Shown here: positions 671 through 42,174 of the stretch, piece by piece
Layout: every line of letters starts with the position of its first letter
Position numbering within the stretch: the first letter of the stretch is position 1
Notes under the pieces: model-generated
Databases searched by the model: none
What the model saw: the letters and a program-made list of their open reading frames with translations, nothing else
Told to the model about the DNA's origin: nothing
Source of the DNA: Leishmania martiniquensis
Taxonomy: Eukaryota > Euglenozoa > Kinetoplastea > Trypanosomatida > Trypanosomatidae
Direction: 5' to 3'
Assembly: GCF_017916325.1 (NCBI RefSeq)
Contig: NC_090161.1
Location: 707,001 to 771,000, forward strand
DNA length: 64,000 nucleotides
Made by a program: the position numbers and the translations under genes

Positions 671-1761
671 GGGCGCTCGATGTGCTGCTGGCGCTCTCAC
701 CGTGTCGTCCCGCTACTTCTTCCACCGTGGCCGCTCGTTGTCTTCTCGATCCTCACGGTGGCTGTGGTGGAAGGGGGCAGGCAGCAGGGAGCGACAATAT
801 GGAGGGTGGAGCGCAGGGCTGCCAGTGCGAGGCCTCATATCTCCATCCGCGTCGTTGCGTGCGTGTGTTCTCCAGCGGAAAGACGGCATTCAGGCGAAGT
901 TGACGGGGCTCAGCGTTTTCTTTGGTATTGTGCATACGTGCGCATGCTCCCCTCCCTTGCGTAGAAGAGCTGAATGCGTGCGCCGTGGACGCGGTGAATC
1001 TGGTGAGGTGTCGATGACTTCTTGGCGGTCAAAGGAGGGGTGGCGGACGGTGGCTGTGCGGCCGCCATGCTCCCTCTCCGCCGCAACGCCGCGCTCGTGC
1101 CATCCAAAGTGCCATCTGATGCGGCGCGTTGCTCTGTATGGTAGACACACACACACAAATAGAGCGTTGCTCCAGTAGGACGAGCCCAACGGAGTGGATG
1201 TCTCTACTGCAGGTGCCGAGGCTGTACCTCGCGCTCCCTTGCCGTAGACTGAGTCCCCCTCCCTCTCCCCCTCTCTCATTGCTGATGTCTTGGGCATAGG
1301 GGGCCGCCTCGTTTGCTTTGCCGCCAACCGCTTCTGTGACTTGCGTGTCTCACCACGTTCCCCCCTTTTCTTTGCCTGTACGGGTGCGTGTGGGACGGTG
1401 TGCCATCACCGCGCTACACGAGGCGGGTGCGGGGGCAGGAGCACACACGGCGCGCTCGAGAACGCTTCTCGTTCATATTTTCCGCGCCCCCTTCATGTGA
1501 GCGCCCTTTTGCATCGCAGACGCGCGTGCACACACACACACACACACAGGGGTAAAAGGGGCGAGTACAGGCGCTCCTTGGGCTCGTATTCTATACACAT
1601 TCCCCCCCCCCACACCAACACATACACACACACAGACAAGCGAGCAGACATTCGTGTTGAATGAAAATAGGACCCCAGTGACTCCGCGACGCACCCCCAT
1701 ACAACCCACCCACCCACACAAACGCACGTGCGCGCCCACAAACGAAATACGCGGGAGGGAA
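671..1761 (+). other. Spacer upstream of the exportin gene
   Basis: No convincing gene. The stretch holds pyrimidine tracts and CA repeats (a clean run at 1529-1548, a C-run at about 1602-1611 and more CA at 1620-1634). Candidate trans-splice acceptor AGs are at 1518-1519, after a C/T-rich tract, and 1634-1635; I cannot choose between them. Arginine-rich open frames across 231-1178 look like shadows. Confidence 0.6.
1529..1548. repeat. (CA)n microsatellite
   Basis: Uninterrupted CA dinucleotides in the 5' spacer of the exportin gene. Similar runs occur in most spacers of this window. Confidence 0.9.
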
Positions 1762-4700
1762 ATGGGTTCCGTAGAGGAGATCGACTCCCTGGCGGAGTCC
1801 ATGTACGCCAATCCGGACCCGGAGGCTCGCCGGCACGCACAGGAGCGTCTCACTGCTCTCACACAAGAGAGCGCAGATGTCGCACCGCTGGAGGCGATCT
1901 TTGCGCGGTCGAACAATCAGTATGCGCTAATGTTTGTGTCACAGGGCGTGGTCACGTGGTTCAAAGCAAATCGAAAGTGGCTCTCAAACGAGCAGCGCTT
2001 CGAGGTGGTGGTGAACATGTGCGGCACTTGCGTGCAGAGGGTCAGTCTTGCCGGAGCCCCACGTCACGTAACTCTAGGCCTCATGAGTGCATACGCCAAG
2101 CTGACGAAGCTGTGCTTCGAGAAGGGCACGCTCATGATGGAGGCCGTTGCATTCGCGCTTCAGATGCTGCACGACGCTTCACCTTCGTACGCGAAGAGCG
2201 TTGCCCACAACGGTGGCTGCGGCACAGCCGCCGGCTCGCACGAGGTCGGCAGCGACAGCGCCCGTATCACCGACTCGGCTAACGGCGCCGCGCCTTCTTC
2301 GGTGGTGAGTGTCGGCGCGGGTAGCATGGCTGCCAGTGGCGGTGGTGCGAGCGGCAGCGACGGCGGCCCGCTTGGGTATGGTATTATTCGGCACTCTCGC
2401 TTTGCCCCGACCGGCTACCGCAGCGAGGAGGAGCGCCGCACCGCCTACCACATCGCCCTGCTGCTGCTCACCACCCTCGTTAATGAGTTTAGCAAGTACG
2501 ACTCGGCCAAGTCGCAGATGTACATGAACTTCTCCGCCCACCGCCGCTGCAGCAACAACTTCCGTGACGAGTGCATGCTGGACATCTTCGTCGCTAGCAT
2601 GGCCGAGTTGGAAGGCGTCAGCAGCGCGTCTCCCATGCTGCTGCAGGTAACGGAATTTGTGCGGGACTGCCTCACGTACGACTTCATGGCGATCATGGTG
2701 GATGAGACTGAGGAGGCGCTCTCCGCCCAGTTCCCGAGCTCGTGGAAGGGGGTGCTGCTTGCGCCGCACACGTGGGATGTGTTGTGGGGCCAGCACGCTA
2801 CACTGCCCTATCCCCACTGTGCTACGCTGCTCACTGGCCTGACAAGCATGTGTGGCATCCGTCGCACCTTCTTCGAGTCCACCGAGGAGCGTGTCCAATA
2901 CCTGAACGGTGCCCTGACCCACCTTGTTCATGCAATGCAGCTGAGTGACGGACGACTGAAGGTGCCGCACTACGTGACAGTGCTGGCGGAGGCGTGCCAC
3001 CGCTTCGTCTCCCCGTTCGGCTATCGCGATCTACACCTGAGTTCCGTCTTTCAGGCGTGGATATCGGCACTCCGTGCCGTGTCACTGGACGTCTTCCGCA
3101 TTCCATTCGGCCAGTCTGGCTCCTTCACCACGGCGACGACCCTTCTCAACTTCTGGAGCCGGTTGGCCACCTCGAGGCGCATGTACAGCATGTCTGAAGA
3201 GTCCCCAAAGGATTTAGAGCTCATCTCGCCCGAGCTTGTTATGCGCTTCTTCGAAGCCCGCGTATACGTCGCAGGCGGCAGTGGCCAGCAGGGGCCAGTG
3301 CACCGTAACACAAATAACGCAAACGGCGACCTTGAGGGAATGGAGTACAACATGGAGACCGACGAGGACTTCGAGGCCACAATGGAGTCGATTCTCGCAC
3401 AGTCGGACGCCGCCGCAAACCTCGCGCTGCTGGAGCACACCGAGGCGATGAGGATGCTGGCAAACTACGTCCACAATGGACTAGGGTCGAATGTGCTGAC
3501 GAGCCCCAGTGCCACCACTTGGCTGTTCTACCTCGCCGGTGGGCTCGTGCGGCACGTGCTGAGTGCCGTCGAGGAGTCAGCGGTGGAGGCGTGCTCGGGC
3601 TTCTTCATGTTCTGTGTGGATTGCGCGAACCATCGCCGCAGCGCCGCTGCGGCGCCGCCGAGGTCGTCTCTCTACAGCTCCTACGTGGAGCGGGCGCTCC
3701 TACACTTCTTGACGATGGTGCAGAGTGTGCTCAGCTCCTCGCGCCTGCACGAGGCACTCAACACCGTCGTCACGAACGTCTTCCAGTCTCGGGTGGCGCT
3801 GTTTCAGTTCATACTGAACAATACCGGGCACAACATCATGCGCGGGATCACCGGTGACCGCACCACCGACGAAGAAACGTCGCACATCATCCGCGAGTCC
3901 ATCGAGCTTATCCGCAATGCGTGCATGGATGTCCCGCACTCCATGCTAGGAGAGCTGCACCTTGAGCTGCCTCCCGTGGTGGAACTGCCCCTGGCACAGT
4001 CGGTTCAAACCTACAAGCTGCGCACGAACCTCTCCGCGGTGCTGTGGCGGCTCTTCAGTGTGGCGCCGTACTCGCAGGCTAACCTGAAGGGGTTTCTGCA
4101 GCCGATCGAGCTGTGCATGCAGAACACGCTCAGCGGCGGCGGCGGCAATGACGCGCTTTTCACGGCTGGGTGGATGCGTGACCTGCGCGGCGTTGTTCTG
4201 GCGTTGCGGGACAGTGCGGATGGGCTCAGCGACCTTGTGGAGTGGGTGTGCGACCACGCCAGCTCCTTTCACGAGGTGCTGCACCGGTCCGCGGCGCAGC
4301 ACAGCATTGTAATCGTTTCCTTCCTGCGCTTCCTGGAAGAGCTCGTCTCGCAAATGGGAGGCCGCTGCACGCTGCCGTGCTGCACAGCGCACAGCTCTTG
4401 CGGACTCATGCTTTTCAAGCACATGTGCTCTCTTATGCAGAGCATAATCGAGCAGTGCATCACAGACGAGCACATTCAGCGTGTCAGCACTGTCGGCGGA
4501 GGCGGTATGGTGGATGGCGCCTACGACATGATGCTGAAACCACTGGCACTCTCCCTGAGTGTCTTGAGGAGGTCGATCCAGGGCGGCTTCGTGCCACTCG
4601 GCGCCATGACCTTCTACCACGATGAGACGTACGACAACGTCCTCCTCGGTCTGCTGCGCATGGTCGGTGTGTTTCCGTTCCTTTACTTCAAGGAGTACCC

Positions 4701-14508: not shown

Positions 14509-16930
14509 TCTGTCGCCTCCCCCCGCCCCTCAGTGCGCATCGAAGAGATCCCTCAATGCTGCGATAGTTGTCATCCTTTGCTTTACCTTCATAGTACAGC
14601 GCTTGACGAAACACAGAAGACAGAGTCTGTGAGTGAGCGCGCGCGCGACAAAAGCGAACAGGCGCTGCGAGCACATCATACCCGCACCCCATGCGCACAC
14701 GTATGAAATGCCCAAGGCGAACCTTGCTCCCCGCCGCTCGCGTGCATCGCCACGCTCGTGAGTGGGTGTGCGCATGTCTTCTTCCGCGCTGTGCGCCTCT
14801 TTTTCGGCCACTTCCCCCTCTCCTTCCTGAGCAGGGCGGGCGTGCACCTCATGCTGTGCGCCGCTCTCCCCTGTTGGCCTCTTCTCCCCTCTTCCTTTCA
14901 TGCGCGCTTGCTCACCTCTCCGCTCCGTCGTCTTCCCCTTTCCCTTCTCCCTCGCTCTCCTTGATCGCGCGCTTCATACGGCGCCCCATGGCGAACCAAA
15001 CACGCATGAGCCAACGCACGCTGTTTTGCCCCCCCCCCCCCCAATGCAGAGAGTACTCATACCGCAGCCGTTGAGTCGCCCCCATCGCCCCACCCCACCT
15101 CACCCCCAAAGTTCAGCGAGAAAGAAGCGCATTGTTTAGAAAAGAGGGCAAACGAACGGCGGGTCGAGACAATAGCGCATCCTCCCTATCGCAGCGCCTC
15201 GACACGATTACCATTAGCCTCTCTTTCTGTATCACGCGGCTCACCATCATTTTTTCTTTTTATAGGCGCGTCAGCATCTTTTTCATTGTCTGTTACATCA
15301 CCGATTTCTCGTCTGTCTGTGGCTCTTTCTCTCTCTCTTTCACTTCCTGGTGGCATATATTTGCCTTCCCAACATTGTCTTCTCTCTGTGCGCCGCTGTG
15401 TATGTGTGTGTGCGTGCGTCTTTGTGGGCAGATTTCTTCGCCGTGGACTCTTTTTGGGTTCTCTCTCCCTCTCCACTCTGCCCTCTCCTCTCCCCCTCCC
15501 CTCTCTCTCATCTCCTTTCTCTGAGTTACACACCCATTCAACGGACGCCGAACGTTGGCTCATTGGCTCGGTAAAACGGCAGTGGGGCCGATCATAGTGC
15601 AGAAAGGTATATCACTTCCACATATACGTGAGGGCAACGCACAACGATTGAAAAGGCGCGTGCTCTCCTCTTTGCGTGTCGTGTTCGCCCGTCTGCACGC
15701 CGCACGCCGCCCCTCTCCACTCATCACCGATTTCCGTTTTTTTTTCTTTTCGCCTGTGCGTTTGCCTCTCCGAGCTGCCCGCCCACCCAACGCGGGGCAT
15801 TGAGCACAGTAACCTTATCTGTGCTCGTGTTGGCCTCTTCGCCCCAGCGCTCGCCCCTTCCCCTCCCTTCCTCCCTCTTCTCTCTCTCCTCCCGTGCTTG
15901 TGGTCTTTGTTGGCTTGCTTTCGACCGTGCAGCGTGTGCGCGGACGCCCTCCTGCTGCTGCTCCATCGCGAACAACCCTTCCCTCTCCTTCTCTTCCTTG
16001 CTCCCTTTTCTTTGTCCCACACGCACGCCTTTTCCTACTTGCATACAGGCCCCGCCTCACGCACGTTTGTATCAAGTGCTGCGGCCCTACCCGTCCGCTT
16101 CCACATCGTTGCCGACAAGGAGTTGAGCGCTCCCCCTCTCCTCGTTTCGGTCTGTCTTTGCTTTCGCACGCGTCAGCGCGGGGAGGGGAGGGGGTGAAGA
16201 GGAAACGAACTAAAACCGGGGACGACGACACGGGGCACACCCGAGACCGCACGCAACACAGCACAGCTGCACACACAGACAGACCGGCATACCGACAGGC
16301 TCTCACTTTCACACGCTTTCACGGCTCCCTCTTCCGCCCCTACCCAAAGGCGAGAGCACAACTACGGAGCGGTGGCAGTGCATCGCGTAGAATACTTTGC
16401 AGAAACACTGCCAGCTCACCTTCTGTATGTAATTGTATGCATGTGCGGCCTCTCTTTTCGTCTTGTGATTTGATTTTTCTTCGTCTTCGCTGAGGTCACC
16501 GTTTCCTTTCACTCTCTCTGTGTACTCTTCAACGTCTTCGTCAGTTCGGCCTGTGATTTATCGTTTCGCCTTCTCCTCCTCCCCCCTCCTCCCTGTCCCC
16601 CCCTTCCACACTCTCTCTACTCCCCCTCCTGTAGTGCGTAAGCAAGTGTGTGATTGCACTTCACCGTATTCCATCTCTCTCACTCTCTCACTTTCCTGCG
16701 CGTGCTCCCGTTTTGGCATTCCTGCACCCGTTCACCCCCTTCCTGTACCTTTTGTTTTCTTCGTCCGTGAGCCGTGCCGTATCTCTCACACCCCTCCTCC
16801 CCTACCCTCCCAGCACCGCCACCACTCATATGCGGGCGTGTGTGTGGATCTTCGGGCGGTCCTGTTAAATTCTCCGAGCATTGTGGCGGTCGCTTAGCGG
16901 TCCATCATCGAAGTCAGTGGATTTCACGAG

Positions 16931-17016: not shown

Positions 17017-20000
17017 ATGACCACAGTTACCGTGAGCGAGAATGCGCTGATGTACCTCAGCGTGGGTGACTTCGTTGCCATCGTCACTCATCACATGAAG
17101 GATGGCAAGCTGCACTGGACCTTGGGCACCGTCGAGACGCCGCCGTACGTGCGGGACGTTGAGGTACGCCTTTGGGAGAAACAGCGGTATGAGTACTACG
17201 ACGAGGATGACACCCCGGCGAACCCAGAAACCGCAGAGCTTATGGCGCGCATTGCCCAGGTGAAGCAGGACCTTCAGGCGAGCATCGACCAGGCCGAGGC
17301 CCTGACGCAGCAGCTGCGCGAACGCCGCGCTGCCATTATAAAGCAGATCGGCGAGGCCGAAACCTATGTGGCGGAGTCGAAGGCCGTCTGCGAAGCTGCT
17401 TGCGAGGACGTCGAGAGCATCTCTGATCGCTACTGGCAGGAGCTGAAGTCGTACCGCATACCACCTAAGATGGTGTCAGTAGTGATTCGAGCCGTTATGT
17501 TGCTGCTCTCTGAGGATGACGCCCGCCTGTGGCCACAGATGCAGCGGGTGCTGCGTGACTTCGACTTCAAGCGCCGCATTACGAGCTACAACCCAAGTCA
17601 CCAGCTTTCGACTGAGCGCCGCGACTACATTCTTCAAGAGTGCGTGAGCAAGAAGAGCTTTCGCTACGACCGCGCTATGCAGGGAAGCGTGGCGGTGGGC
17701 CCAATCTATTACTGGGTGCTGGCGCAGCTCGACAGCGGTGAGGCTCAGTCGCAGAAGGACCGCGTTGACCAGGAGAGGGTTGCCCGGCAGAAGGAACTGC
17801 GCCTCGTGCTGCAGCAAATCAGTGAACAGCAGAGACGCATAACAGAGTATCAGGAGCTCATGGAAGACCTGGATGATCAGCTGCGCCTGTGCAACCAGCG
17901 CAACAGCAATGGCAGCTCCGTTGGTGTACGCTCGCAGAGCCAGAGCGTGTCGCGTTCTCGCCGCCGCATCTGGTCCAGCGACCGCTACAACGAGAGCTTT
18001 GCCGGTCGCGAGGGGAAGCAGTACCTTCGACCGGCCTTCTACACATGGAAGCCGACAGACCGCGTCATAATTGTGCTTCGGAAGAACATCGTTTGTAACT
18101 TCGGCGCCGTCACCTCGCAGGAGCAGGAGGAGGGGTATACGATGAGTGAGCCTCAGATCCGCATGCTGGATGCAGCTCTCATAAGCTGCCAGCAAGCCCT
18201 TGAGATGATGAGCGGCGGCGACGAGGAGCGTGAGGATGAGGCCCTTGAGGAGGACATGTTCAGGCAAAACAACGACGAGGTCGGCGGCACGATGCGCAAC
18301 GATGAGGAGATACTCCATGCGCGCCGGATGAGCGCTACCGCCGGCAAGCCGACGCCAATGCCAACGCCGCAAGCCGACGGCACAGACACGTTCGGCATGG
18401 GCGCCGCCACGGCGACCTCGAAGCTGGAGCGCACGTTTGAGGGAAAGAATTGGCATCGCGTTCTCGACCGCAAGCGCGACGCCATTGAGGCCGCTTTCAC
18501 AGAGGAGTCCGCGGTGTGCCTGGAGGTGCCCGTGTACTACATCTCCATCGACGACCTCAAGCTCGGGAGCCTCATTGTCTGCTTCTCGGCCCTGCACGAT
18601 GGCCAGCGCTCCGATGTAGAGCTGCAGGGCCGCGTGAATGCGTACGGGTACCCGAAGGTTATGCTGCTCTACGAGGAGGGCGAGGAGTACTACGAAGGCC
18701 CGGAGCATCAGGTCAAGTTCTGCGGCGACCGCTGGGTGGACCTCACCCCCTTGCACCGTGACGAGATCGAGGCCGCTTTCCTGGAAGACACGAGCGTCGC
18801 GACCGGTGCGCAGCGGGAGGAGATCAGTGTTCAAAGCATTCGCGCCGATGAGGACGAAGGGCTCACGGTGGACTACTCCATGCTGGACAGGAACCGCGAT
18901 CCTGAGGAAGTGCAGGAGCAGGTGGACGCCTACGCTTACCCTGCCATGTGGGACCTGTATCAGCGGCTGACTGGGCTGAACGAGGCGGGGCCGATTCACC
19001 AGGTGCGTTTCCGCGGCGAGCGGTGGGCGGACATTATACCCGGCGCAGAGGAGGCGATCAAGCAGGCGTTTGCCGAGGACACCGCTAACGCGCTTGGCAT
19101 CGCACCACGGCAAGTGGTCCCCGAAGAGATCCGCTACGAGATCGGGCTCACAGTGCCCTACACCGTCTTCGGCTGCTTGCTGGACGGCGACGAGGTGGAT
19201 GCCAAGGCGGAGGACTACACTTACCCAAAGACGTGGGCGCTGTACGACCGCCTCGTGGCGGAGGCCGTCGGCGCGGCCTACCAGAAGAGCTTCGAGGGCG
19301 AGCACTGGGAAGCGGTGCTGCATGCGGCGCGGCCTGAAGTGTCGGAGGCTTTCTGCACGGACACAGCAAACGCCGTCAACTCCAAAATCAGCGAGGTCGA
19401 ACCCCGCTCGATCGATGCAGATCAGGACCGCCTGCTCATCTCCTACAACGTTGGCAACTCCCGGCAGGGTGCCGACACGGTGCGTGAGAGCACCCGGGCG
19501 TATCCCTACCCGGAAGTGTGGGCGGTGTACCAGCTGGTCACGGCGGAGGAAGCGGAGGGCACGCAACATTTGTCCCAGACGTTCGACGGAGAGTCGTGGG
19601 AGGCGATCAACGCGAGGATGCCAGAGCGGGTGCGAGAGGCCTTCACGGAGGATGTAGCGGCTGCCACTCGCGTCCGCCTGGCGTGCGTGGCCATCCACGA
19701 CATCAAGACGAGCAGGAAGGGTATGGCGGTGGAATACGGCATGGCTCGTGAGGGGGGCCAGTCCTCGTATGCGACGCGCAAGGCGGCGAAGGAGTTTCAC
19801 TATCCGGCCATGTGGAGCCTGTACGAAGCAAACAGGGAGCGATCGCCGGTGCGCGTCTTGGGCGACAGCGAGTCAGGCATCCTGCAGCGCTGCTTCGAGG
19901 GCGACGACTGGGACATTGTTCTCGATGCGTGCCCAGAGGATCTTGATGATGCCTTCTGCACCGATGCGGCGCGGGTGCTGGGCGTGCCCAAAGCGAACGT

Positions 20001-23000
20001 GCGCATCATCAGTGCCACGTTAGGCAGCTTGATCGTCACGTACCAGATCGTGTGCCCGCCATGCGAGGACAGCGAGATTCAGCGGCGCGCGGATGAGGAC
20101 GAGTTCCCTACAGTGATGGGCCTGTACCGCCGCCGCGTGCGCGGCGGTGACGAGGGCGCCGCCTTGCAGAGGCACGCGGCGCCGGTGCTGCATAACCTCG
20201 AGGGCATGCTGCCGAAGGTTTTTGATGGAGACGAATGGGGCTGTGTGCTGGCGAGGCAATCCGCGGTACTGGAGCAGGCGTTTGCGGAAGACACCGCTGA
20301 TGCTCTCGGTGTGAGCGTGGGACAGGTGCTTGCGAAGCAGCTGAAGGCGAGCGCGTACGCGCTTCAGGTACAGTACAGCGTTCGCGACTGCCCATCCGAC
20401 GGGCCAGCGGCGCAGGCGGCTGTGGAGGACTACGCATACCCGCTGGTGTGGGGGCTATACCAAACGGAGAAGGATCTGGGCAAGTATCTGAAGACGTTTG
20501 ACGGCCCTGCCTGGAAGGGCCTCGCCGCCTCCCGCGAGGGGGCGTTAAAAGAGGCCTTCGTGAAAGACACCGCTGACGCCCTCAAGACGGACGAGCGGAG
20601 TGTGTTTGTCAAAGCCGTCGGCGCTCATGCCGAGAGCCTTTCGGTGCGCTACGGTCTGCTCGACAACAGAGTCTATGCCGATGAGCAGGTGGCGGAGATT
20701 CAGCAGAAGCACGCGTACCCGAACATGTGGGTGCTCTACGCTGCGGAGGAGAGGCGCCGTTTGGTGACGACGTCCCACCAGGTCGGCTTCGACGGCGACG
20801 ACTGGGTGTACGTCCTGCGGGACAAGATGACGGAGCTGCAGGAAGCGTTTGTCAGCTGCACCGCCGACACGTTCAATGTGTGTACGGAGAACGTCAAGAA
20901 CACGAAGTATACGCTGGGCGGCCTCATCGTGGACTTCGAGCTCACGCACCCGGCATGGCTGACCGAGAAAGAGATCGATGAGCGGCTCATCGCGTGCTCG
21001 TACGAGCGCGTGTGGGACCTCTACGGCTACCATCCCTGGGACCCGACGAAGGTCACGGAGACGTCGCACGAGGTGTGCTTTGATGGACCGGGCTGGGCAG
21101 CCGTGCTCGAGTTTCACCGCAAGGAGCTGGAGGAGTGCTTTCAGCAGGACACGGCGACGGCGCTCGAGGTCCAGCCGAGCGACGTGCGCATCGACGGGGC
21201 CAATTACGCCAAGGAGCGCCTGTTCATGCGTGCGACCGTCACCCACCACATCTTCCAGGATAACGAGCTGATGCAGGAGCAACTCCGCCGCTACCCATAC
21301 GAGGCGGTTTGGAAGCTCTATGCTGAGGATCCGAACCAGGGCTGGGCGACGACGTCGCATCAGGTCGGCTTCGACGGCGACGACTGGGTGTACGTCCTGT
21401 CTGCCCGCAAGAAGGCGCTGGAGGAGGCCTTTCGCACATGCACGTCTGGGTCTCTGGGGCTGACGGATGCGCATATCACGAACGTCGTCTTAGCGGCCAA
21501 TGAGAGGGCGCTGCTGGCTACGTGCGAGGTGCAGCACCCGAAGAGGCAGTCGGTGGAGGAGGTGAACAGCAGGCTCGCCGAATGCGACTACGTGCTGCTG
21601 TGGGAGCTGTACATAGATCACCCCTACAACCCGGATGAGCAGGAAACAACTTCGCATGAGATCGGCTTCGAGGGGGAGGAGTGGAACAAGGTGGTAGAGA
21701 CGCAGCCGCAGCAGCTCGAGGAGGCCGTCATGCTCGACACGGCCGAGGCGCTGGAGGTGACGCCGAACGATATCACGTCGATCAAGACCAGCTTCGAAGG
21801 CGGCAACCTACTCCTTGTCCATCTCGATATTCGGCACCCCCTCCTGCAGGACCAGGAGCTCATGAAGGAGCAGCTGGGCCGCTACCCGTACGAGCGCGTG
21901 TGGGCTCTATACGAAGACGCACCGATAACCCCTCTAAACAAGGATCAAGCGGGCGGCTTTGGCAACTCTGGCGACAGCGAGTCAGGCATCCTGCAGCGCT
22001 GCTTCGAGGGCGACGACTGGGACATTGTTCTCGATGCGTGCCCAGAGGATCTTGATGATGCCTTCTGCACCGATGCGGCGCGGGTGCTGGGCGTGCCCAA
22101 AGCGAACGTGCGCATCATCAGTGCCACGTTAGGCAGCTTGATCGTCACGTACCAGATCGTGTGCCCGCCATGCGAGGACAGCGAGATTCAGCGGCGCGCG
22201 GATGAGGACGAGTTCCCTACAGTGATGGGCCTGTACCGCCGCCGCGTGCGCGGCGGTGACGAGGGCGCCGCCTTGCAGAGGCACGCGGCGCCGGTGCTGC
22301 ATAACCTCAAGGTAACGACGCTGCAGGACTGCGGATTCGAAGGCGAGGACTGGGACTACGTGTGGTCCATCAAGCAGGAGGCGATGTGCAGCGCCTTCGC
22401 GCAAGGCGCCGCGGATGCGCTGGGGATCGATCCAGCGGACATCGAGAACATCAACATGGAGAAGTCGGAGGACGGCATTGTGCTCGGCGCGAGCGTGAGT
22501 CACCCGCTGACGCAGGACTACGAGACAATCCAGAAGGCGCTGAAGGACCACCCGTTCAGGGAGCTGTGGGCGCTCTACGAGACGCGCCCGTATGATCCGA
22601 ACAAGTTCGTGAGCACGGAGCACGTCATCTCCTTCGAGGGCGATGAGTGGGGCCCTGTGATGGCACAAAAAAACGAGGAGGTGGTGGGGGCGATCCGCAA
22701 GGACACGGCGTGCGCGCTGGACGTGCCAGAAGACGACGTGACAGACGTGCATACGAGAGTAGAGCCTGCCGGGCTGATCGCCACAATCGTGGTTAGCCAC
22801 TCGCCGCTGCAGGATAATGAGCTGACCCAGGAGGAGCTAGCCAAGTACGAGTACGAGCGCGTGTGGGCGCTGTACTGCCCTGAGGGTGTGGCGCGACGCG
22901 GCACGAAGCACTTCGATGGCTTAAACTGGGCGAAGGTGATGGAGTGTGACAAGGAGGGTGTGACGCAGGCGTTCTGCAAGGACACGGCAGCTGCCATGAA

Positions 23001-26000
23001 CGCCCGTCCAGAGGATGTGGAGGTGGGCGACATTCGCACGACGGACGATCGCATGGAGGTGGACTACGCGGTGAGCCACACTAGCGCAAGCGAGGGGGAT
23101 GTGTGGCGCACGCTGCACACGTATCCGTACCCGAACGTGTGGGACTACTACCGCGTCGAAGAAGAGAAGGTAACGACGCTGCAGGACTGCGGATTCGAAG
23201 GCGAGGACTGGGACTACGTGTGGTCCATCAAGCAGGAGGCGATGTGCAGCGCCTTCGCGCAAGGCGCCGCGGATGCGCTGGGGATCGATCCAGCGGACAT
23301 CGAGAACATCAACATGGAGAAGTCGGAGGACGGCATTGTGCTCGGCGCGAGCGTGAGTCACCCGCTGACGCAGGACTACGAGACAATCCAGAAGGCGCTG
23401 AAGGACCACCCGTTCAGGGAGCTGTGGGCGCTCTACGAGACGCGCCCGTATGATCCGAACAAGTTCGTGAGCACGGAGCACGTCATCTCCTTCGAGGGCG
23501 ATGAGTGGGGCCCTGTGATGGCACAAAAAAACGAGGAGGTGGTGGGGGCGATCCGCAAGGACACGGCGTGCGCGCTGGACGTGCCAGAAGACGACGTGAC
23601 AGACGTGCATACGAGAGTAGAGCCTGCCGGGCTGATCGCCACAATCGTGGTTAGCCACTCGCCGCTGCAGGATAATGAGCTGACCCAGGAGGAGCTAGCC
23701 AAGTACGAGTACGAGCGCGTGTGGGCGCTGTACTGCCCTGAGGGTGTGGCGCGACGCGGCACGAAGCACTTCGATGGCTTAAACTGGGCGAAGGTGATGG
23801 AGTGTGACAAGGAGGGTGTGACGCAGGCGTTCTGCAAGGACACGGCAGCTGCCATGAACGCCCGTCCAGAGGATGTGGAGGTGGGCGACATTCGCACGAC
23901 GGACGATCGCATGGAGGTGGACTACGCGGTGAGCCACACTAGCGCAAGCGAGGGGGATGTGTGGCGCACGCTGCACACGTATCCGTACCCGAACGTGTGG
24001 GACTACTACCGCGTCGAAGAAGAGAAGGTAACGACGCTGCAGGACTGCGGATTCGAAGGCGAGGACTGGGACTACGTGTGGTCCATCAAGCAGGAGGCGA
24101 TGTGCAGCGCCTTCGCGCAAGGCGCCGCGGATGCGCTGGGGATCGATCCAGCGGACATCGAGAACATCAACATGGAGAAGTCGGAGGACGGCATTGTGCT
24201 CGGCGCGAGCGTGAGTCACCCGCTGACGCAGGACTACGAGACAATCCAGAAGGCGCTGAAGGACCACCCGTTCAGGGAGCTGTGGGCGCTCTACGAGACG
24301 CGCCCGTATGATCCGAACAAGTTCGTGAGCACGGAGCACGTCATCTCCTTCGAGGGCGATGAGTGGGGCCCTGTGATGGCACAAAAAAACGAGGAGGTGG
24401 TGGGGGCGATCCGCAAGGACACGGCGTGCGCGCTGGACGTGCCAGAAGACGACGTGACAGACGTGCATACGAGAGTAGAGCCTGCCGGGCTGATCGCCAC
24501 AATCGTGGTTAGCCACTCGCCGCTGCAGGATAATGAGCTGACCCAGGAGGAGCTAGCCAAGTACGAGTACGAGCGCGTGTGGGCGCTGTACTGCCCTGAG
24601 GGTGTGGCGCGACGCGGCACGAAGCACTTCGATGGCTTAAACTGGGCGAAGGTGATGGAGTGTGACAAGGAGGGTGTGACGCAGGCGTTCTGCAAGGACA
24701 CGGCAGCTGCCATGAACGCCCGTCCAGAGGATGTGGAGGTGGGCGACATTCGCACGACGGACGATCGCATGGAGGTGGACTACGCGGTGAGCCACACTAG
24801 CGCAAGCGAGGGGGATGTGTGGCGCACGCTGCACACGTATCCGTACCCGAACGTGTGGGACTACTACCGCGTCGAAGAAGAGAAGGTAACGACGCTGCAG
24901 GACTGCGGATTCGAAGGCGAGGACTGGGACTACGTGTGGTCCATCAAGCAGGAGGCGATGTGCAGCGCCTTCGCGCAAGGCGCCGCGGATGCGCTGGGGA
25001 TCGATCCAGCGGACATCGAGAACATCAACATGGAGAAGTCGGAGGACGGCATTGTGCTCGGCGCGAGCGTGAGTCACCCGCTGACGCAGGACTACGAGAC
25101 AATCCAGAAGGCGCTGAAGGACCACCCGTTCAGGGAGCTGTGGGCGCTCTACGAGACGCGCCCGTATGATCCGAACAAGTTCGTGAGCACGGAGCACGTC
25201 ATCTCCTTCGAGGGCGATGAGTGGGGCCCTGTGATGGCACAAAAAAACGAGGAGGTGGTGGGGGCGATCCGCAAGGACACGGCGTGCGCGCTGGACGTGC
25301 CAGAAGACGACGTGACAGACGTGCATACGAGAGTAGAGCCTGCCGGGCTGATCGCCACAATCGTGGTTAGCCACTCGCCGCTGCAGGATAATGAGCTGAC
25401 CCAGGAGGAGCTAGCCAAGTACGAGTACGAGCGCGTGTGGGCGCTGTATGCAGCGGACACGCACAGCGGTGATGAGGCTGAAGAGGAGGCCTTGCGCAGC
25501 CGCACAATGAAGGGAGACGAAGTCATCGCGGTCGACGTGGTCGATGAGGATGAGGTGCCGGAGGGCTACACGCGTGTCGCACTGAGTGTTAGCTTCGAAG
25601 GGGAGTTGTGGGAAGGGATAGTGCGGAGGCGCACGAAGGAGGTGGCGGATGCCTTCCGCGCTGAGACGGCGCATTGTATCGGCGCAGCGGGCGAGGGCAT
25701 CTACATTCGTGAGTGCGTCGTAAGTGCGGAGGGCATGCTGGTGCACTTCAGTGCCCTTTGTGAGGAGACGATGGCCGAGGAGGAGCTTAGAGATAGGATC
25801 GACGAGCACCCCTACGAAAATGTTTGGGCCCTCTACGAGAAAGAGGAGCGCGTCTCGGCCGCCATGTCGAAGGTCATGGTGAAGCACTTTGAGGGGTTAT
25901 ACTGGGACGTAGCAATGAAAAGGTGCCCGGAACTTGTGGAGAAGTCCTTCAAGGAGGACACGGCGGATGTGCTGCAGGTAGATGCAGCGAAGGTGCTCGT

Positions 26001-26361
26001 TGAGGGCACCTCTCTGGGCAGCCTCATCGTGTATTTTCGCGTACAGGGCCTGAAAATCTCGGAGGCAAAGGCGACGCAGCTGACGCAGAAGTACGCCTAC
26101 CCGAAGGTTTGGGCGCTGTACATCTCACGCAATGAGGGGGGTCACCACACCTCGGCGAGCAACCGCACGAACGGCTGCACGGATGGCAATGGAAGTCGCC
26201 CGTCGCACCGTCGTGCGGAGCAGCTCGTGGCGGAGGAGGGCGTGGAGTCCCAGGAAACACTCACATACCTGCGCAAGGCCCTCGCTGAGGCCCGCCGCGA
26301 GCGTGATATGTACATGGAGCAGGTCGAGGAGGTGCAGCGCTCAAGCAGACATAAAAAATGA
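17017..26361 (+). CDS. Giant FAZ1-domain repeat protein with a dynein-stalk-like N-terminus
   Basis: A 3114-residue protein. Residues ~10-52 form a small conserved start domain (VGDFVAI ... LHWTLGTV). Residues ~70-140 and ~245-290 are predicted coiled coils flanking a helical head at ~145-240. The head reads like a dynein microtubule-binding domain: IPPKMVSVVIRAVMLLL, then W, then VLRDFDFKRRI, then YYWVLAQL. No AAA+ or Walker motif is present. A further conserved block has NFGAVTSQEQEEGY. From residue ~470 to ~3040 there are 26 copies by my count of a ~95-residue domain with the pattern F-G-x2-W, then a helix ending AF-x2-DTA-x-AL, then YPxVW-x-LY. This matches the kinetoplastid FAZ1 conserved domain as I recall it. 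The C-terminus is a short charged helix ending RHKK. Likely cytoskeletal, at the flagellum attachment zone or subpellicular array; that placement is inference. Confidence 0.85.
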   Translation: MTTVTVSENALMYLSVGDFVAIVTHHMKDGKLHWTLGTVETPPYVRDVEVRLWEKQRYEYYDEDDTPANPETAELMARIAQVKQDLQASIDQAEALTQQLRERRAAIIKQIGEAETYVAESKAVCEAACEDVESISDRYWQELKSYRIPPKMVSVVIRAVMLLLSEDDARLWPQMQRVLRDFDFKRRITSYNPSHQLSTERRDYILQECVSKKSFRYDRAMQGSVAVGPIYYWVLAQLDSGEAQSQKDRVDQERVARQKELRLVLQQISEQQRRITEYQELMEDLDDQLRLCNQRNSNGSSVGVRSQSQSVSRSRRRIWSSDRYNESFAGREGKQYLRPAFYTWKPTDRVIIVLRKNIVCNFGAVTSQEQEEGYTMSEPQIRMLDAALISCQQALEMMSGGDEEREDEALEEDMFRQNNDEVGGTMRNDEEILHARRMSATAGKPTPMPTPQADGTDTFGMGAATATSKLERTFEGKNWHRVLDRKRDAIEAAFTEESAVCLEVPVYYISIDDLKLGSLIVCFSALHDGQRSDVELQGRVNAYGYPKVMLLYEEGEEYYEGPEHQVKFCGDRWVDLTPLHRDEIEAAFLEDTSVATGAQREEISVQSIRADEDEGLTVDYSMLDRNRDPEEVQEQVDAYAYPAMWDLYQRLTGLNEAGPIHQVRFRGERWADIIPGAEEAIKQAFAEDTANALGIAPRQVVPEEIRYEIGLTVPYTVFGCLLDGDEVDAKAEDYTYPKTWALYDRLVAEAVGAAYQKSFEGEHWEAVLHAARPEVSEAFCTDTANAVNSKISEVEPRSIDADQDRLLISYNVGNSRQGADTVRESTRAYPYPEVWAVYQLVTAEEAEGTQHLSQTFDGESWEAINARMPERVREAFTEDVAAATRVRLACVAIHDIKTSRKGMAVEYGMAREGGQSSYATRKAAKEFHYPAMWSLYEANRERSPVRVLGDSESGILQRCFEGDDWDIVLDACPEDLDDAFCTDAARVLGVPKANVRIISATLGSLIVTYQIVCPPCEDSEIQRRADEDEFPTVMGLYRRRVRGGDEGAALQRHAAPVLHNLEGMLPKVFDGDEWGCVLARQSAVLEQAFAEDTADALGVSVGQVLAKQLKASAYALQVQYSVRDCPSDGPAAQAAVEDYAYPLVWGLYQTEKDLGKYLKTFDGPAWKGLAASREGALKEAFVKDTADALKTDERSVFVKAVGAHAESLSVRYGLLDNRVYADEQVAEIQQKHAYPNMWVLYAAEERRRLVTTSHQVGFDGDDWVYVLRDKMTELQEAFVSCTADTFNVCTENVKNTKYTLGGLIVDFELTHPAWLTEKEIDERLIACSYERVWDLYGYHPWDPTKVTETSHEVCFDGPGWAAVLEFHRKELEECFQQDTATALEVQPSDVRIDGANYAKERLFMRATVTHHIFQDNELMQEQLRRYPYEAVWKLYAEDPNQGWATTSHQVGFDGDDWVYVLSARKKALEEAFRTCTSGSLGLTDAHITNVVLAANERALLATCEVQHPKRQSVEEVNSRLAECDYVLLWELYIDHPYNPDEQETTSHEIGFEGEEWNKVVETQPQQLEEAVMLDTAEALEVTPNDITSIKTSFEGGNLLLVHLDIRHPLLQDQELMKEQLGRYPYERVWALYEDAPITPLNKDQAGGFGNSGDSESGILQRCFEGDDWDIVLDACPEDLDDAFCTDAARVLGVPKANVRIISATLGSLIVTYQIVCPPCEDSEIQRRADEDEFPTVMGLYRRRVRGGDEGAALQRHAAPVLHNLKVTTLQDCGFEGEDWDYVWSIKQEAMCSAFAQGAADALGIDPADIENINMEKSEDGIVLGASVSHPLTQDYETIQKALKDHPFRELWALYETRPYDPNKFVSTEHVISFEGDEWGPVMAQKNEEVVGAIRKDTACALDVPEDDVTDVHTRVEPAGLIATIVVSHSPLQDNELTQEELAKYEYERVWALYCPEGVARRGTKHFDGLNWAKVMECDKEGVTQAFCKDTAAAMNARPEDVEVGDIRTTDDRMEVDYAVSHTSASEGDVWRTLHTYPYPNVWDYYRVEEEKVTTLQDCGFEGEDWDYVWSIKQEAMCSAFAQGAADALGIDPADIENINMEKSEDGIVLGASVSHPLTQDYETIQKALKDHPFRELWALYETRPYDPNKFVSTEHVISFEGDEWGPVMAQKNEEVVGAIRKDTACALDVPEDDVTDVHTRVEPAGLIATIVVSHSPLQDNELTQEELAKYEYERVWALYCPEGVARRGTKHFDGLNWAKVMECDKEGVTQAFCKDTAAAMNARPEDVEVGDIRTTDDRMEVDYAVSHTSASEGDVWRTLHTYPYPNVWDYYRVEEEKVTTLQDCGFEGEDWDYVWSIKQEAMCSAFAQGAADALGIDPADIENINMEKSEDGIVLGASVSHPLTQDYETIQKALKDHPFRELWALYETRPYDPNKFVSTEHVISFEGDEWGPVMAQKNEEVVGAIRKDTACALDVPEDDVTDVHTRVEPAGLIATIVVSHSPLQDNELTQEELAKYEYERVWALYCPEGVARRGTKHFDGLNWAKVMECDKEGVTQAFCKDTAAAMNARPEDVEVGDIRTTDDRMEVDYAVSHTSASEGDVWRTLHTYPYPNVWDYYRVEEEKVTTLQDCGFEGEDWDYVWSIKQEAMCSAFAQGAADALGIDPADIENINMEKSEDGIVLGASVSHPLTQDYETIQKALKDHPFRELWALYETRPYDPNKFVSTEHVISFEGDEWGPVMAQKNEEVVGAIRKDTACALDVPEDDVTDVHTRVEPAGLIATIVVSHSPLQDNELTQEELAKYEYERVWALYAADTHSGDEAEEEALRSRTMKGDEVIAVDVVDEDEVPEGYTRVALSVSFEGELWEGIVRRRTKEVADAFRAETAHCIGAAGEGIYIRECVVSAEGMLVHFSALCEETMAEEELRDRIDEHPYENVWALYEKEERVSAAMSKVMVKHFEGLYWDVAMKRCPELVEKSFKEDTADVLQVDAAKVLVEGTSLGSLIVYFRVQGLKISEAKATQLTQKYAYPKVWALYISRNEGGHHTSASNRTNGCTDGNGSRPSHRRAEQLVAEEGVESQETLTYLRKALAEARRERDMYMEQVEEVQRSSRHKK
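19861..20199 (+). repeat. Exact 339-bp duplication, copy A
   Basis: Encodes one FAZ1-type domain beginning GDSESGILQRCFEG. By eye it is base-for-base identical to 21970-22308, 2109 bp downstream and in the same frame. After CATAACCTC the two copies diverge at once (GAG here). Confidence 0.9.
20779..20817 (+). repeat. 39-bp identical segment, copy A
   Basis: Encodes QVGFDGDDWVYVL at the start of one FAZ1-type domain and is identical to 21361-21399. The offset of 582 bp is two domains, which suggests an older two-domain duplication or local gene conversion. Confidence 0.85.
21361..21399 (+). repeat. 39-bp identical segment, copy B
   Basis: Second copy of 20779-20817. Flanking codons have diverged, so only this core has stayed identical or been converted. 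Confidence 0.85.
21970..22308 (+). repeat. Exact 339-bp duplication, copy B
   Basis: Identical to 19861-20199. Its right end coincides exactly with the left end of the 858-bp tandem array (AAG at 22309), which marks a recombination junction. Confidence 0.9.
22309..25448 (+). repeat. 858-bp tandem array, 3.66 copies, inside the giant gene
   Basis: Copies begin at 22309, 23167, 24025 and 24883; the fourth stops after 566 bp. Each full unit is 286 codons and encodes three FAZ1-type domains. I see no base difference among copies: translations in other reading frames are also identical from copy to copy, so synonymous sites agree. Because the unit is long and identical, the number of copies in an assembly may be wrong. 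Confidence 0.95.
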
Positions 26362-28053: not shown

Positions 28054-30582
28054 ATGTCTGACTACCAGTCTAGCGATCTGCAGTTTGAGGTGGCGCCTTC
28101 CACTACGGAGGCAACTTCGGCCGGCACTTTGGTACTGGGCGACTGCTCTGACCTGCACATCGGAGACTATGTCGGGTTCCAGTGCATTGATCCAAGCAAG
28201 GATTGGAAGCTGTCCCTTGGCAGGGTGACCTCCTTCCCATCGCTGTGCACCGTCAAGGTCTCGGTCTACGACGCCGTCAATGACACGGCGGTGACGCGGG
28301 ACCCCCTCTCCGAGGTGGAGCTCCGCGAGAAGGCGGGGGCAGCGAATAAGATGGAGGTGTGGCACAACCGCGAGGCACTGCGGGAGGACCTCATCCTGGA
28401 GCAGACCAAGGAGCAGGCCGCGACGCAACGCCTCTTCGCTGCCCGCGAGAAGACGGCGGCGCGTCAGATAACCATTGGCGACAGAGTGACCAAGTCACTG
28501 GAGAAGCTCGACAAAGCCCGTATCGATCTCCAAGAGATCCCGCCGAAGGAGTGGCGCGACCTGCGCAGCCCCTGCCTCCCGCCCGATGAGGTGATCGGCA
28601 TGCTGCGCTCCGTGATGCTCATCATTTACGAAGACGGCGTCACTGTGTGGGAAGAAATTCAGGAGGTGCTTCGCCGATCCGATTTTATGGACCGCGTGAT
28701 GAGCTGGGACTGCACTGTCACTCCCATGTCGCTCACGCGCCGCAGGAGGATTGTCGCTCTGTGCGCCGGCGAGGATGTCGGTGGCCTTTACCTGAAGAAG
28801 CGCCGCCGCTCCGGCTCCCGCGGTGTGGCCCCGACTGGCCCTCTCGTCGTCTCGGCGAAGAGCTCGAACCCAAGCAACGTGGCTGTTCTCGATGAGTGCA
28901 TGCGTGCCTGGATTAACGCGCAGCTGGCGTGCTCTGAGGCTGCTCGTGAGCAGGAGGTAATGATCAACAAGTGCTTCGCTGAGCAGCAGGAGCAGCGCGT
29001 GCTTCTGCGCGAGATCAACGACATGCGCGTGGGCATCGCTTCCATGGAGATGCAGATGCTGGAGATGAAGAGCACCATCCTTGGCGTTGATAACACACCG
29101 AAGCCGATCATGCCGCTCGAGGCGTACCCGACCGACACGGTCTTCTACAGGCGCACCTACCCGGGCTTGGCGGGCCGCTTAGTGGAAGATGTCATTCTGC
29201 GCAACGCCATCATTTTCAACTTTGGCGCCATCACCTCAGAGGATCAGGAGGGATACATCCGCCTGAACGCCACTCAGGCGGACTTCCTGCGCAGCGCCGT
29301 CATCGCCGCCAACGTGCGCCATGACGCGGATGAGATGGAGGAGCTGCTGGCCCGCAAGGAGCGCGAAGAGCAGGAGATGGCGGACCTCAAGGCTCGCATC
29401 GAGGAACTGCGCAGCAGGCCATCGCTGACGGCGGAGGAGGAGGAGGAGCTAGCGCAGCTGCAGAGGCTCTACGCCGATGCCGAGCGCCGCCACCTCGTGA
29501 CACTGTCTCGCATTGCCGACTTGTATGCCTGCGGCCGCGGCGCGCGGGAGATTACGCTGGCGATCAAACGCCCCGAGTTCTGCTACACCCGTCTCCACTG
29601 CAAGATGTCCGGTGACTGGGACGTAATCTTGCAAGACCCGGCGCGCTACTCGGAAATGCTCGCCGCGTTCTGCGAAGACGTGTCCGGCTTACTGAACATT
29701 CCGGCCAGCTACGTGCTGGACATCGATGCCAGCTCCGGCTCCCTGCTAATCGACTTCACCGTGAAACACAGCGGTGACCTCGACGATGAGGAGCTGCAGA
29801 ACCTCATCAACAAGGGCCCCTTCTCCGCACTCTGCATGTTCTATGAGAAAGTAACGTTAAAGAAAACGTCGCCCCTGAACACGAGCCAGCAACAGGAGAT
29901 GTACGACCTTGAGCAGCGCCACGCCATGCTACTGCCGATCTCTGGTATGGGCATTAAGCAGACGCTGGCGGACTACTACAACGCGGACGGTTCGCTGGAC
30001 GATGAGTTCAGTGACGATGTGAGAGCGAGTCCGTACTATTGCCGGCCCAGTATCACGATACAGATTCTCCGAGAGGACTACGATGATGTGATGGTGCGTG
30101 GTCCCTTCGAGCAGCACGCCAGGGGTGCCGGCAAGGGGCCAAATATGGATATGGAGGCGAGCACCATGGCGCCGATCGAAGGCGCGTACGAGAGCAAAGA
30201 AGAAGATGGGTCGGCTGGCGTAACGCAGGCGACTTCGGGTCTCACTGAGACAGGGGACGGTGCGCACGATATGGAGTCGGAGCCACCGACAGAGGTGCGT
30301 GGCCGCACCACGACTCTGGGCGATGAGGTGCCACCCGCCGAGGCAGCCGTCACCGTCTCTGCCCCAATTGAAGAGGAGGATAAGGCTGCAGCTGATGGGA
30401 ATACGGATTCGCGAGAGGACGCTGCGACTGTCGGCAAGGGAGCAGACGCTGCTCGCCCCGGGGGCAAAGCCTCGTCCTCCACGACCTCGTCCACATCGTC
30501 TTCCGCTTCAAAGAAGAAATCGCCCAAGGCATCTTCGTCGAAGAGGTCGTCCAAGGGGTCTTCGACGAACAGGAAGCCGTAG
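28054..30582 (+). CDS. FAZ1-domain protein with dynein-stalk-like N-terminus, paralogue of the giant protein
   Basis: An 842-residue protein with the architecture of the giant neighbour but only one FAZ1-type domain. Residues ~28-75 repeat the start domain (LHIGDYVGF ... WKLSLGRV). Coiled coil at ~95-165 and ~300-350 flanks a head with LPPDEVIGMLRSVMLIIYED, then W, then VLRRSDFMDRVMSWD, then MRAWINAQLAC, the pattern of a dynein microtubule-binding domain. A basic insert (KKRRRSGSRG) breaks the head. A block with NFGAITSEDQEGY matches NFGAVTSQEQEEGY of the giant protein. A charged coiled coil follows at ~425-490, then the FAZ1-type domain at ~505-600 (MSGDWDVIL ... LIDFTV). The end is Ser/Lys-rich low complexity. 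A cytoskeletal role is inferred. Confidence 0.82.
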   Translation: MSDYQSSDLQFEVAPSTTEATSAGTLVLGDCSDLHIGDYVGFQCIDPSKDWKLSLGRVTSFPSLCTVKVSVYDAVNDTAVTRDPLSEVELREKAGAANKMEVWHNREALREDLILEQTKEQAATQRLFAAREKTAARQITIGDRVTKSLEKLDKARIDLQEIPPKEWRDLRSPCLPPDEVIGMLRSVMLIIYEDGVTVWEEIQEVLRRSDFMDRVMSWDCTVTPMSLTRRRRIVALCAGEDVGGLYLKKRRRSGSRGVAPTGPLVVSAKSSNPSNVAVLDECMRAWINAQLACSEAAREQEVMINKCFAEQQEQRVLLREINDMRVGIASMEMQMLEMKSTILGVDNTPKPIMPLEAYPTDTVFYRRTYPGLAGRLVEDVILRNAIIFNFGAITSEDQEGYIRLNATQADFLRSAVIAANVRHDADEMEELLARKEREEQEMADLKARIEELRSRPSLTAEEEEELAQLQRLYADAERRHLVTLSRIADLYACGRGAREITLAIKRPEFCYTRLHCKMSGDWDVILQDPARYSEMLAAFCEDVSGLLNIPASYVLDIDASSGSLLIDFTVKHSGDLDDEELQNLINKGPFSALCMFYEKVTLKKTSPLNTSQQQEMYDLEQRHAMLLPISGMGIKQTLADYYNADGSLDDEFSDDVRASPYYCRPSITIQILREDYDDVMVRGPFEQHARGAGKGPNMDMEASTMAPIEGAYESKEEDGSAGVTQATSGLTETGDGAHDMESEPPTEVRGRTTTLGDEVPPAEAAVTVSAPIEEEDKAAADGNTDSREDAATVGKGADAARPGGKASSSTTSSTSSSASKKKSPKASSSKRSSKGSSTNRKP

Positions 30583-35314: not shown

Positions 35315-35977
35315 ATGTCCCGCCGTGAGAGCTGTGTCTGGCACCCAATGCCCGAGGAGGTGCGTCGTTCCTCCGTCCAGTCGCGCCGCGCGTCGCTGGC
35401 CGCTGGCCGCCGCAAGAGCCTGAATGCGAATGAGCCCGACTGGGATGTGGAGGCCCCGCCAACCCCCTTTCACTACGAGTATAGCACGCGTGAAAACGCA
35501 GCGGAGACGGAGCACACCCTACACGAGGCCGCCGCGCCACCGGCGAAGTCCCCTAAGGGGTTGCAGGGTGCCGAAGAGTCGACCCTCGCAGAGGTAACGC
35601 AGGTCGCTATCATCTCCGAGTCGCCGTCCATGGAGGACGAGGAGGCGGCAGCGGCGGCGCAGCCAATTGATGCGGCCGTGGTGGACTCCAGAACGAATCG
35701 CACCCGCCATACCGTGCGCTTTCACGGCGAAAAGTGGGCGAAGGTACTGCGCAAGCGCCGCACAGAGATCGAGGCGTCCTTCATGGAGGACATCCGGGAC
35801 GGCGCGTCCATCATGGCACATGAGGCGAAGCGGCTGAAGATCAAAATGAACGACTGTATGGAGGTGACGTTTGTCATGTACAGCGATAGCCGCGCGCGGC
35901 AGAAGGAGATTCATGTGGCGCTGCAGAATTACAACTTCCCCAAGACATGCCAGCGGTACATCAATTTCGAGGCGTGA
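35315..35977 (+). CDS. Small single FAZ1-domain protein
   Basis: A 220-residue protein starting MSRRESCVWHPMPEE. The first ~130 residues are polar and low in predicted structure. The last ~85 hold one FAZ1-type domain: TVRFHGEKWAKVLRKRRTEI, then ASFMEDIRDGA, then a strand with MEVTFVMYSD, then NFPKTCQRYINFEA. Compared with the repeats of the giant protein, the DTA motif has become DIR and the final VWxLY has become TCQRYI, so it is a diverged member. There is no coiled coil or membrane segment. It lies in the same cluster and orientation as its larger relatives, which suggests an old tandem duplication. Confidence 0.78.
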   Translation: MSRRESCVWHPMPEEVRRSSVQSRRASLAAGRRKSLNANEPDWDVEAPPTPFHYEYSTRENAAETEHTLHEAAAPPAKSPKGLQGAEESTLAEVTQVAIISESPSMEDEEAAAAAQPIDAAVVDSRTNRTRHTVRFHGEKWAKVLRKRRTEIEASFMEDIRDGASIMAHEAKRLKIKMNDCMEVTFVMYSDSRARQKEIHVALQNYNFPKTCQRYINFEA

Positions 35978-41493: not shown

Positions 41494-42174
41494 ATGCCGA
41501 CTTCTGTGCGCAGTGCCAACAGTGAGAACCGCAAGAGAACGGCTGGGAGTAGCGACGGCGAAGGCAGTGATCGCATCATCGACGGGCTCCGCTACCCCCG
41601 GCCGGAGCGCCAGATCGATCAGTTTGGGTTCGAACTGACCACCCACCGGTTGCATTTTCACGGCCGTGATTGGGATATCCCGCTGACGCGGAAGCGCGAT
41701 GAGCTGACCAAAGCCTTCTTACTCGATGCCGCGGCCGCTGCGAACGAGCCGGACAACAACATCCGCAACCTTCGCTTCATCGTGACGCCGACGCACCTCG
41801 ACGCGAAGATGATGGTGCGCCACAAAGCCCACGTATCGAAGTACGAGGTGCAGAAAATGTTGTCCACCGCCAAGTGGTCGCATGTGAAGGCGCTCTATGA
41901 GCCGAGAAAGAAAATGCGGAGGCCAAATAGGCTCGCTGTAGCCGGCAACCGCAATGGAGGAGCCCAAGACGACCAGCCGATGCTTGGTGCGAACCGGCGG
42001 ACGGCGTCGCACAACCTTAGCTTCTTCGGTCGCGCGAATGTCGGTGCCGAGGGGCCTGAATTCGAGGACCACGCAGACGCTGACGAGGAGCCCGTCGCTT
42101 ACGAGCATCAGCAGGACGCAAAGGAGAGGCGCACAACGAGCCATCTCTTCATCTCTGTCGGCCTCGCCGCGTAG
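41494..42174 (+). CDS. Small single FAZ1-domain protein
   Basis: A 226-residue protein starting MPTSVRSANSENRKR. Residues ~48-138 carry one diverged FAZ1-type domain: HRLHFHGRDWDIPLTRKRDE, then KAFLLDAAAAANEPD, then strands and a final helix, ending WSHVKALYEPRKK. This parallels F-G-x2-W, AF-x2-D-x-A and VWxLY of the giant repeat protein. The N-terminus and the C-terminal ~85 residues are polar and probably disordered, with an acidic patch (DHADADEEP). It is the last member of the cluster that begins at 17017. Function unknown; likely shares location with its paralogues. Confidence 0.76.
   Translation: MPTSVRSANSENRKRTAGSSDGEGSDRIIDGLRYPRPERQIDQFGFELTTHRLHFHGRDWDIPLTRKRDELTKAFLLDAAAAANEPDNNIRNLRFIVTPTHLDAKMMVRHKAHVSKYEVQKMLSTAKWSHVKALYEPRKKMRRPNRLAVAGNRNGGAQDDQPMLGANRRTASHNLSFFGRANVGAEGPEFEDHADADEEPVAYEHQQDAKERRTTSHLFISVGLAA

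Follow-up and report, generated by a model that had tools for sequence, protein, structure and literature searches.

A dynein-type stalk and head without a motor at the N terminus of a GB4-type giant repeat protein of Leishmania martiniquensis

A GB4-type giant repeat protein of Leishmania martiniquensis carries at its N terminus a genuine homolog of the stalk and microtubule-binding domain (MTBD) found in dynein heavy chains, detached from the AAA+ motor and placed between two small predicted beta segments. The window analyzed, i.e., the whole 64,000-nucleotide stretch (assembly GCF_017916325.1, contig NC_090161.1, positions 707,001 to 771,000, forward strand), encodes the protein in an intact open reading frame (ORF) that starts with an ATG at 17017 (C26:724017) and whose stop codon ends at 26361. 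The nearest upstream in-frame stop starts at 16768, 249 bases before this ATG, with no further in-frame ATG between the two. Homology, predicted fold, lack of a detectable motor, retention of the head across the GB4 family, and the presence of further motorless copies were all established computationally. The segment 17017..18150, from which the original prediction was made, corresponds to residues 1-378. The features are as follows.

17017..26361, + strand: GB4-type protein, 3114 aa, intact ORF; three Leishmania homologs are named Gb4 (P0006-P0008)
17044..17181, + strand: N-terminal beta segment (residues 10-55; predicted strands 18-24, 33-39, and 47-55), from the AlphaFold2 (AF2) model; matches a paralog in this genome (the C31 paralog)
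17224..17415, + strand: stalk helix CC1 (residues 70-133), from AF2; aligned with dynein stalk 5ayh
17425..17694, + strand: dynein-type microtubule-binding head (residues 137-226; last helix continues into CC2)
17695..17916, + strand: last head helix and stalk helix CC2 (residues 227-300), from AF2 and dynein stalk comparison
18043..18210, + strand: C-terminal beta segment and helix of the stalk module (residues 343-398), from AF2; matches the C31 paralog
18415..26127, + strand: FAZ1_cons (PF23398) domain array, 26 stretches, from a Pfam scan

The original prediction had read a coiled coil, a helical head, and a second coiled coil, with a few landmarks in the head, all of which were located (IPPKMV at residues 148-153, W172, VLRDFDFKRRI at 178-188, and WVLAQL at 233-238) and are colinear with those of the dynein head. 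The proposed likeness to dynein gained support from a phmmer search against the PDB, which returned 41 sequences at E≤1 (best E, 3.6e-12), the majority bearing the name dynein heavy chain. With a 133-aa head piece as query, all 22 sequences at E≤0.001 were dyneins or dynein MTBD constructs (best E, 6.6e-13). A 111-aa head alignment scored 146 against yeast and 126 against mouse dynein, compared to maxima of 53 and 54 in 5,000 shuffles. The head-only E values, the shuffle control, and the colinear landmarks all speak against a convergent helical hairpin and head not descended from dynein, a reading that is strongly disfavored and highly improbable.

The AF2 model, built from 18 GB4 sequences with no dynein included, has the same layout, with helices at residues 70-133 and 227-300, a helical head in between, and predicted beta segments on both sides (mean pLDDT, 81.8; pTM, 0.63). 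The hairpin and head aligned with 5ayh, so that the comparison with a dynein stalk structure also came out in favor. Significant sequence similarity to MTBDs of known structure, together with the shared predicted fold, places the module in the dynein stalk/MTBD family. A check of this kind was also favorable for the C31 paralog, which matches L. martiniquensis LSCM1_01422 at 100% identity and exceeds the Pfam PF12777 (MT) cut-off with 28.6 bits.

The 10 Pfam families detected at E≤1 across the 3114 aa included no AAA+ family, as originally claimed, and none of the other dynein motor families, linker and tail domains among them. The scan found 26 FAZ1_cons stretches, the first at residue 467; PreAtp-grasp and DUF4390 also exceeded their cut-offs on the whole protein, with no single stretch doing so alone, and look like repeat artifacts. 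Net charge is +5 for residues 140-240, −2 for residues 66-305, and −255 for residues 400-3114.

The original prediction needed correction as to identity: this is a member of the GB4 family, and T. brucei GB4 is reportedly located, according to the title of Rindisbacher 1993, at the posterior ends of microtubules, and not at the flagellum attachment zone (FAZ). A homolog search found 20 proteins, 18 of GB4 type and two dyneins (E values, 8.8e-7 and 2.3e-4). One of the 18 is identical to the window protein, and the others include members from Leishmania, Novymonas, Porcisia, Trypanosoma melophagium, and Phytomonas. Identity across residues 1-380 was 77 to 81% for the Leishmania records named Gb4 (P0006-P0008) and 81% for the L. 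infantum record. T. brucei GB4 was absent from the matches, whereas the T. melophagium member (P0013) was present. The L. infantum ortholog of T. brucei GB4, LinJ.26.1950 (Lci6), has about 450 nonrepetitive N-terminal residues followed by 21 repeats (PMC5619722), a layout that the window protein fits, with FAZ1_cons beginning at residue 467. A T. cruzi Gb4 epitope (PMC10070320) looks similar by eye to CC1 of P0013. The name Gb4 is in use for LinJ.26.1950 and also for the Crithidia gene CfaC1_33_0870, numbered to chromosome 33 (PMC4263474). GB4 and four FAZ proteins share PFAMB506 (PMC4406125), which is probably the present FAZ1_cons, and the function of the GB4 repeats is called unknown in the discussion of PMC8625193.

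That the module might be a functionless, decayed fragment of a dynein heavy-chain gene could be suspected from two relatives of the C31 paralog (P0039 and P0040) recorded as dynein heavy chain, cytosolic. This is scarcely credible given the intact ORF and the alignment of the module in 18 GB4 rows from several genera; a T. cruzi protein linked by the name Gb4 only has also been quantified in a proteome study (PMC11493278).

Six contacts of yeast dynein to tubulin (PMC7042235) were mapped onto the GB4 head, and three are retained by charge: the E3122 position is E and the R3124 position K in 18/18 GB4 rows, and the R3159 position is R in 16 of the 18 and Q in two. The other three contacts are lost and count against a microtubule-binding dynein head: no GB4 row has a basic residue at the K3117 or the R3152 position (0/18 each), and the R3201 position is Q in 14 rows, K in three, and H in one. 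Against the dynein assignment itself stands the Pfam stalk profile test suggested with the original prediction, which, taken literally, fell below the curated PF12777 cut-off of 24 bits (17.1 bits and E 0.0029 for residues 1-378; 14 bits and E 0.026 for the whole protein). The lost contacts would fit a true dynein-stalk homolog that no longer binds microtubules, its head being a protein-protein docking site or spacer, e.g., for other FAZ1-domain proteins, as would the diverged, insertion-bearing head of the neighboring paralog (28054-30582, below). We consider this rather unlikely, since conservation is higher in most of the head than in the coiled coils or beta segments (66 to 82% identity in blocks 141-180 and 201-240, 50% in block 181-200, and 29 to 49% in the coiled coils, across the eight most divergent GB4 rows) and the E3122 and R3159 positions are kept. 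Moreover, motor dyneins themselves lack several contacts: among 11 rows (nine from this genome and two others), a basic residue was found at K3117 in 4/11, R3152 in 1/11, and R3201 in 5/11, the alignment being loose there and mouse off by one column at R3159.

The explanation that we favor as probable is a motorless stalk/MTBD relative acting as a static microtubule clamp by which GB4 ties or caps posterior microtubule ends. The head would dock as dynein's does, in the alpha/beta-tubulin groove. Lacking an ATPase that shifts CC1 relative to CC2, the stalk would be held in a single register, and the head would act as a static clamp. Partner binding or self-association may fall to the FAZ1-domain array and C-terminal coiled coil, by which GB4 would tie or cap subpellicular microtubule ends at the posterior pole, to which plus ends point (PMC3261199, PMC13071381).

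The GB4 stalk is not the sole motorless one that this genome encodes. Of 11 head matches scored across the genome (best candidates only), none lies in the listed long FAZ1_cons frames of C22, C33, and C34. The second such gene in the window lies 1.7 kb downstream of GB4 and is more diverged; the final portion of its head carries an insertion.

28054..30582, + strand: second motorless stalk gene, 842 aa, same module plus one FAZ1_cons; head-like match at 28516-28836

Additional FAZ1_cons matches in short frames (35699-35950 and 41638-41907) place GB4 in a local cluster of FAZ1-domain sequences. Elsewhere, L012 (C9) 1282-2928 encodes a 548-aa motorless stalk protein nearest to motor dyneins (E 7.4e-20), with K at both the K3117 and R3201 positions; within the family, it is a good candidate for real microtubule binding. 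In the 617-aa product of L013 (C34) 1237-3090, the stalk module is weak and may be degenerate. We tentatively raise a broader possibility: the motorless dynein-stalk proteins of trypanosomatids, at least four and perhaps five in number, would form a family with a single origin, with the stalk inserted in one split beta domain that would clamp both coiled-coil ends and fix the register normally switched by dynein's ATPase. GB4 would then use a locked high-affinity head, coupled to a FAZ1-domain scaffold, for capping and tying microtubule plus ends in the subpellicular corset.

The presence of a dynein stalk and head without the motor on this giant cytoskeletal protein, in Leishmania and its relatives, suggests that the motor's moving part has been reused as a fixed microtubule anchor. 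If so, the stalk, known as a moving lever, is reusable as a static anchor, and GB4 would be a natural case in which a factor other than an ATPase sets the stalk register. The head would offer a direct, testable molecular explanation for the hold of GB4 on posterior microtubule ends, for which the excerpted literature gives none; searches of open-license papers yielded none that describes a dynein head in GB4 or links the dynein stalk with GB4 or the FAZ.

Compared to the dynein heavy-chain stalk/MTBD (cytoplasmic dynein 1; PF12777), GB4 is alike in its antiparallel coiled coil, helical head, landmarks, and fold, but neither an AAA+ ring nor a linker or tail is detectable in it, its stalk sits between predicted beta segments, and three tubulin contacts are lost. 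With T. brucei GB4 (posterior microtubule cap) and L. infantum Lci6/LinJ.26.1950, it has in common the nonrepetitive N terminus followed by repeats, and with FAZ1 and other FAZ1_cons proteins, the repeat domain. The module is also shared, over 374 columns, with short trypanosomatid proteins recorded as "Dynein heavy chain coiled coil stalk..." or "Microtubule-binding stalk of dynein motor," which, like GB4, matched no motor family (19 members scanned) but differ in size (576 to 870 aa), in having no FAZ1_cons match, and in that their stalk is already labeled by database annotation.
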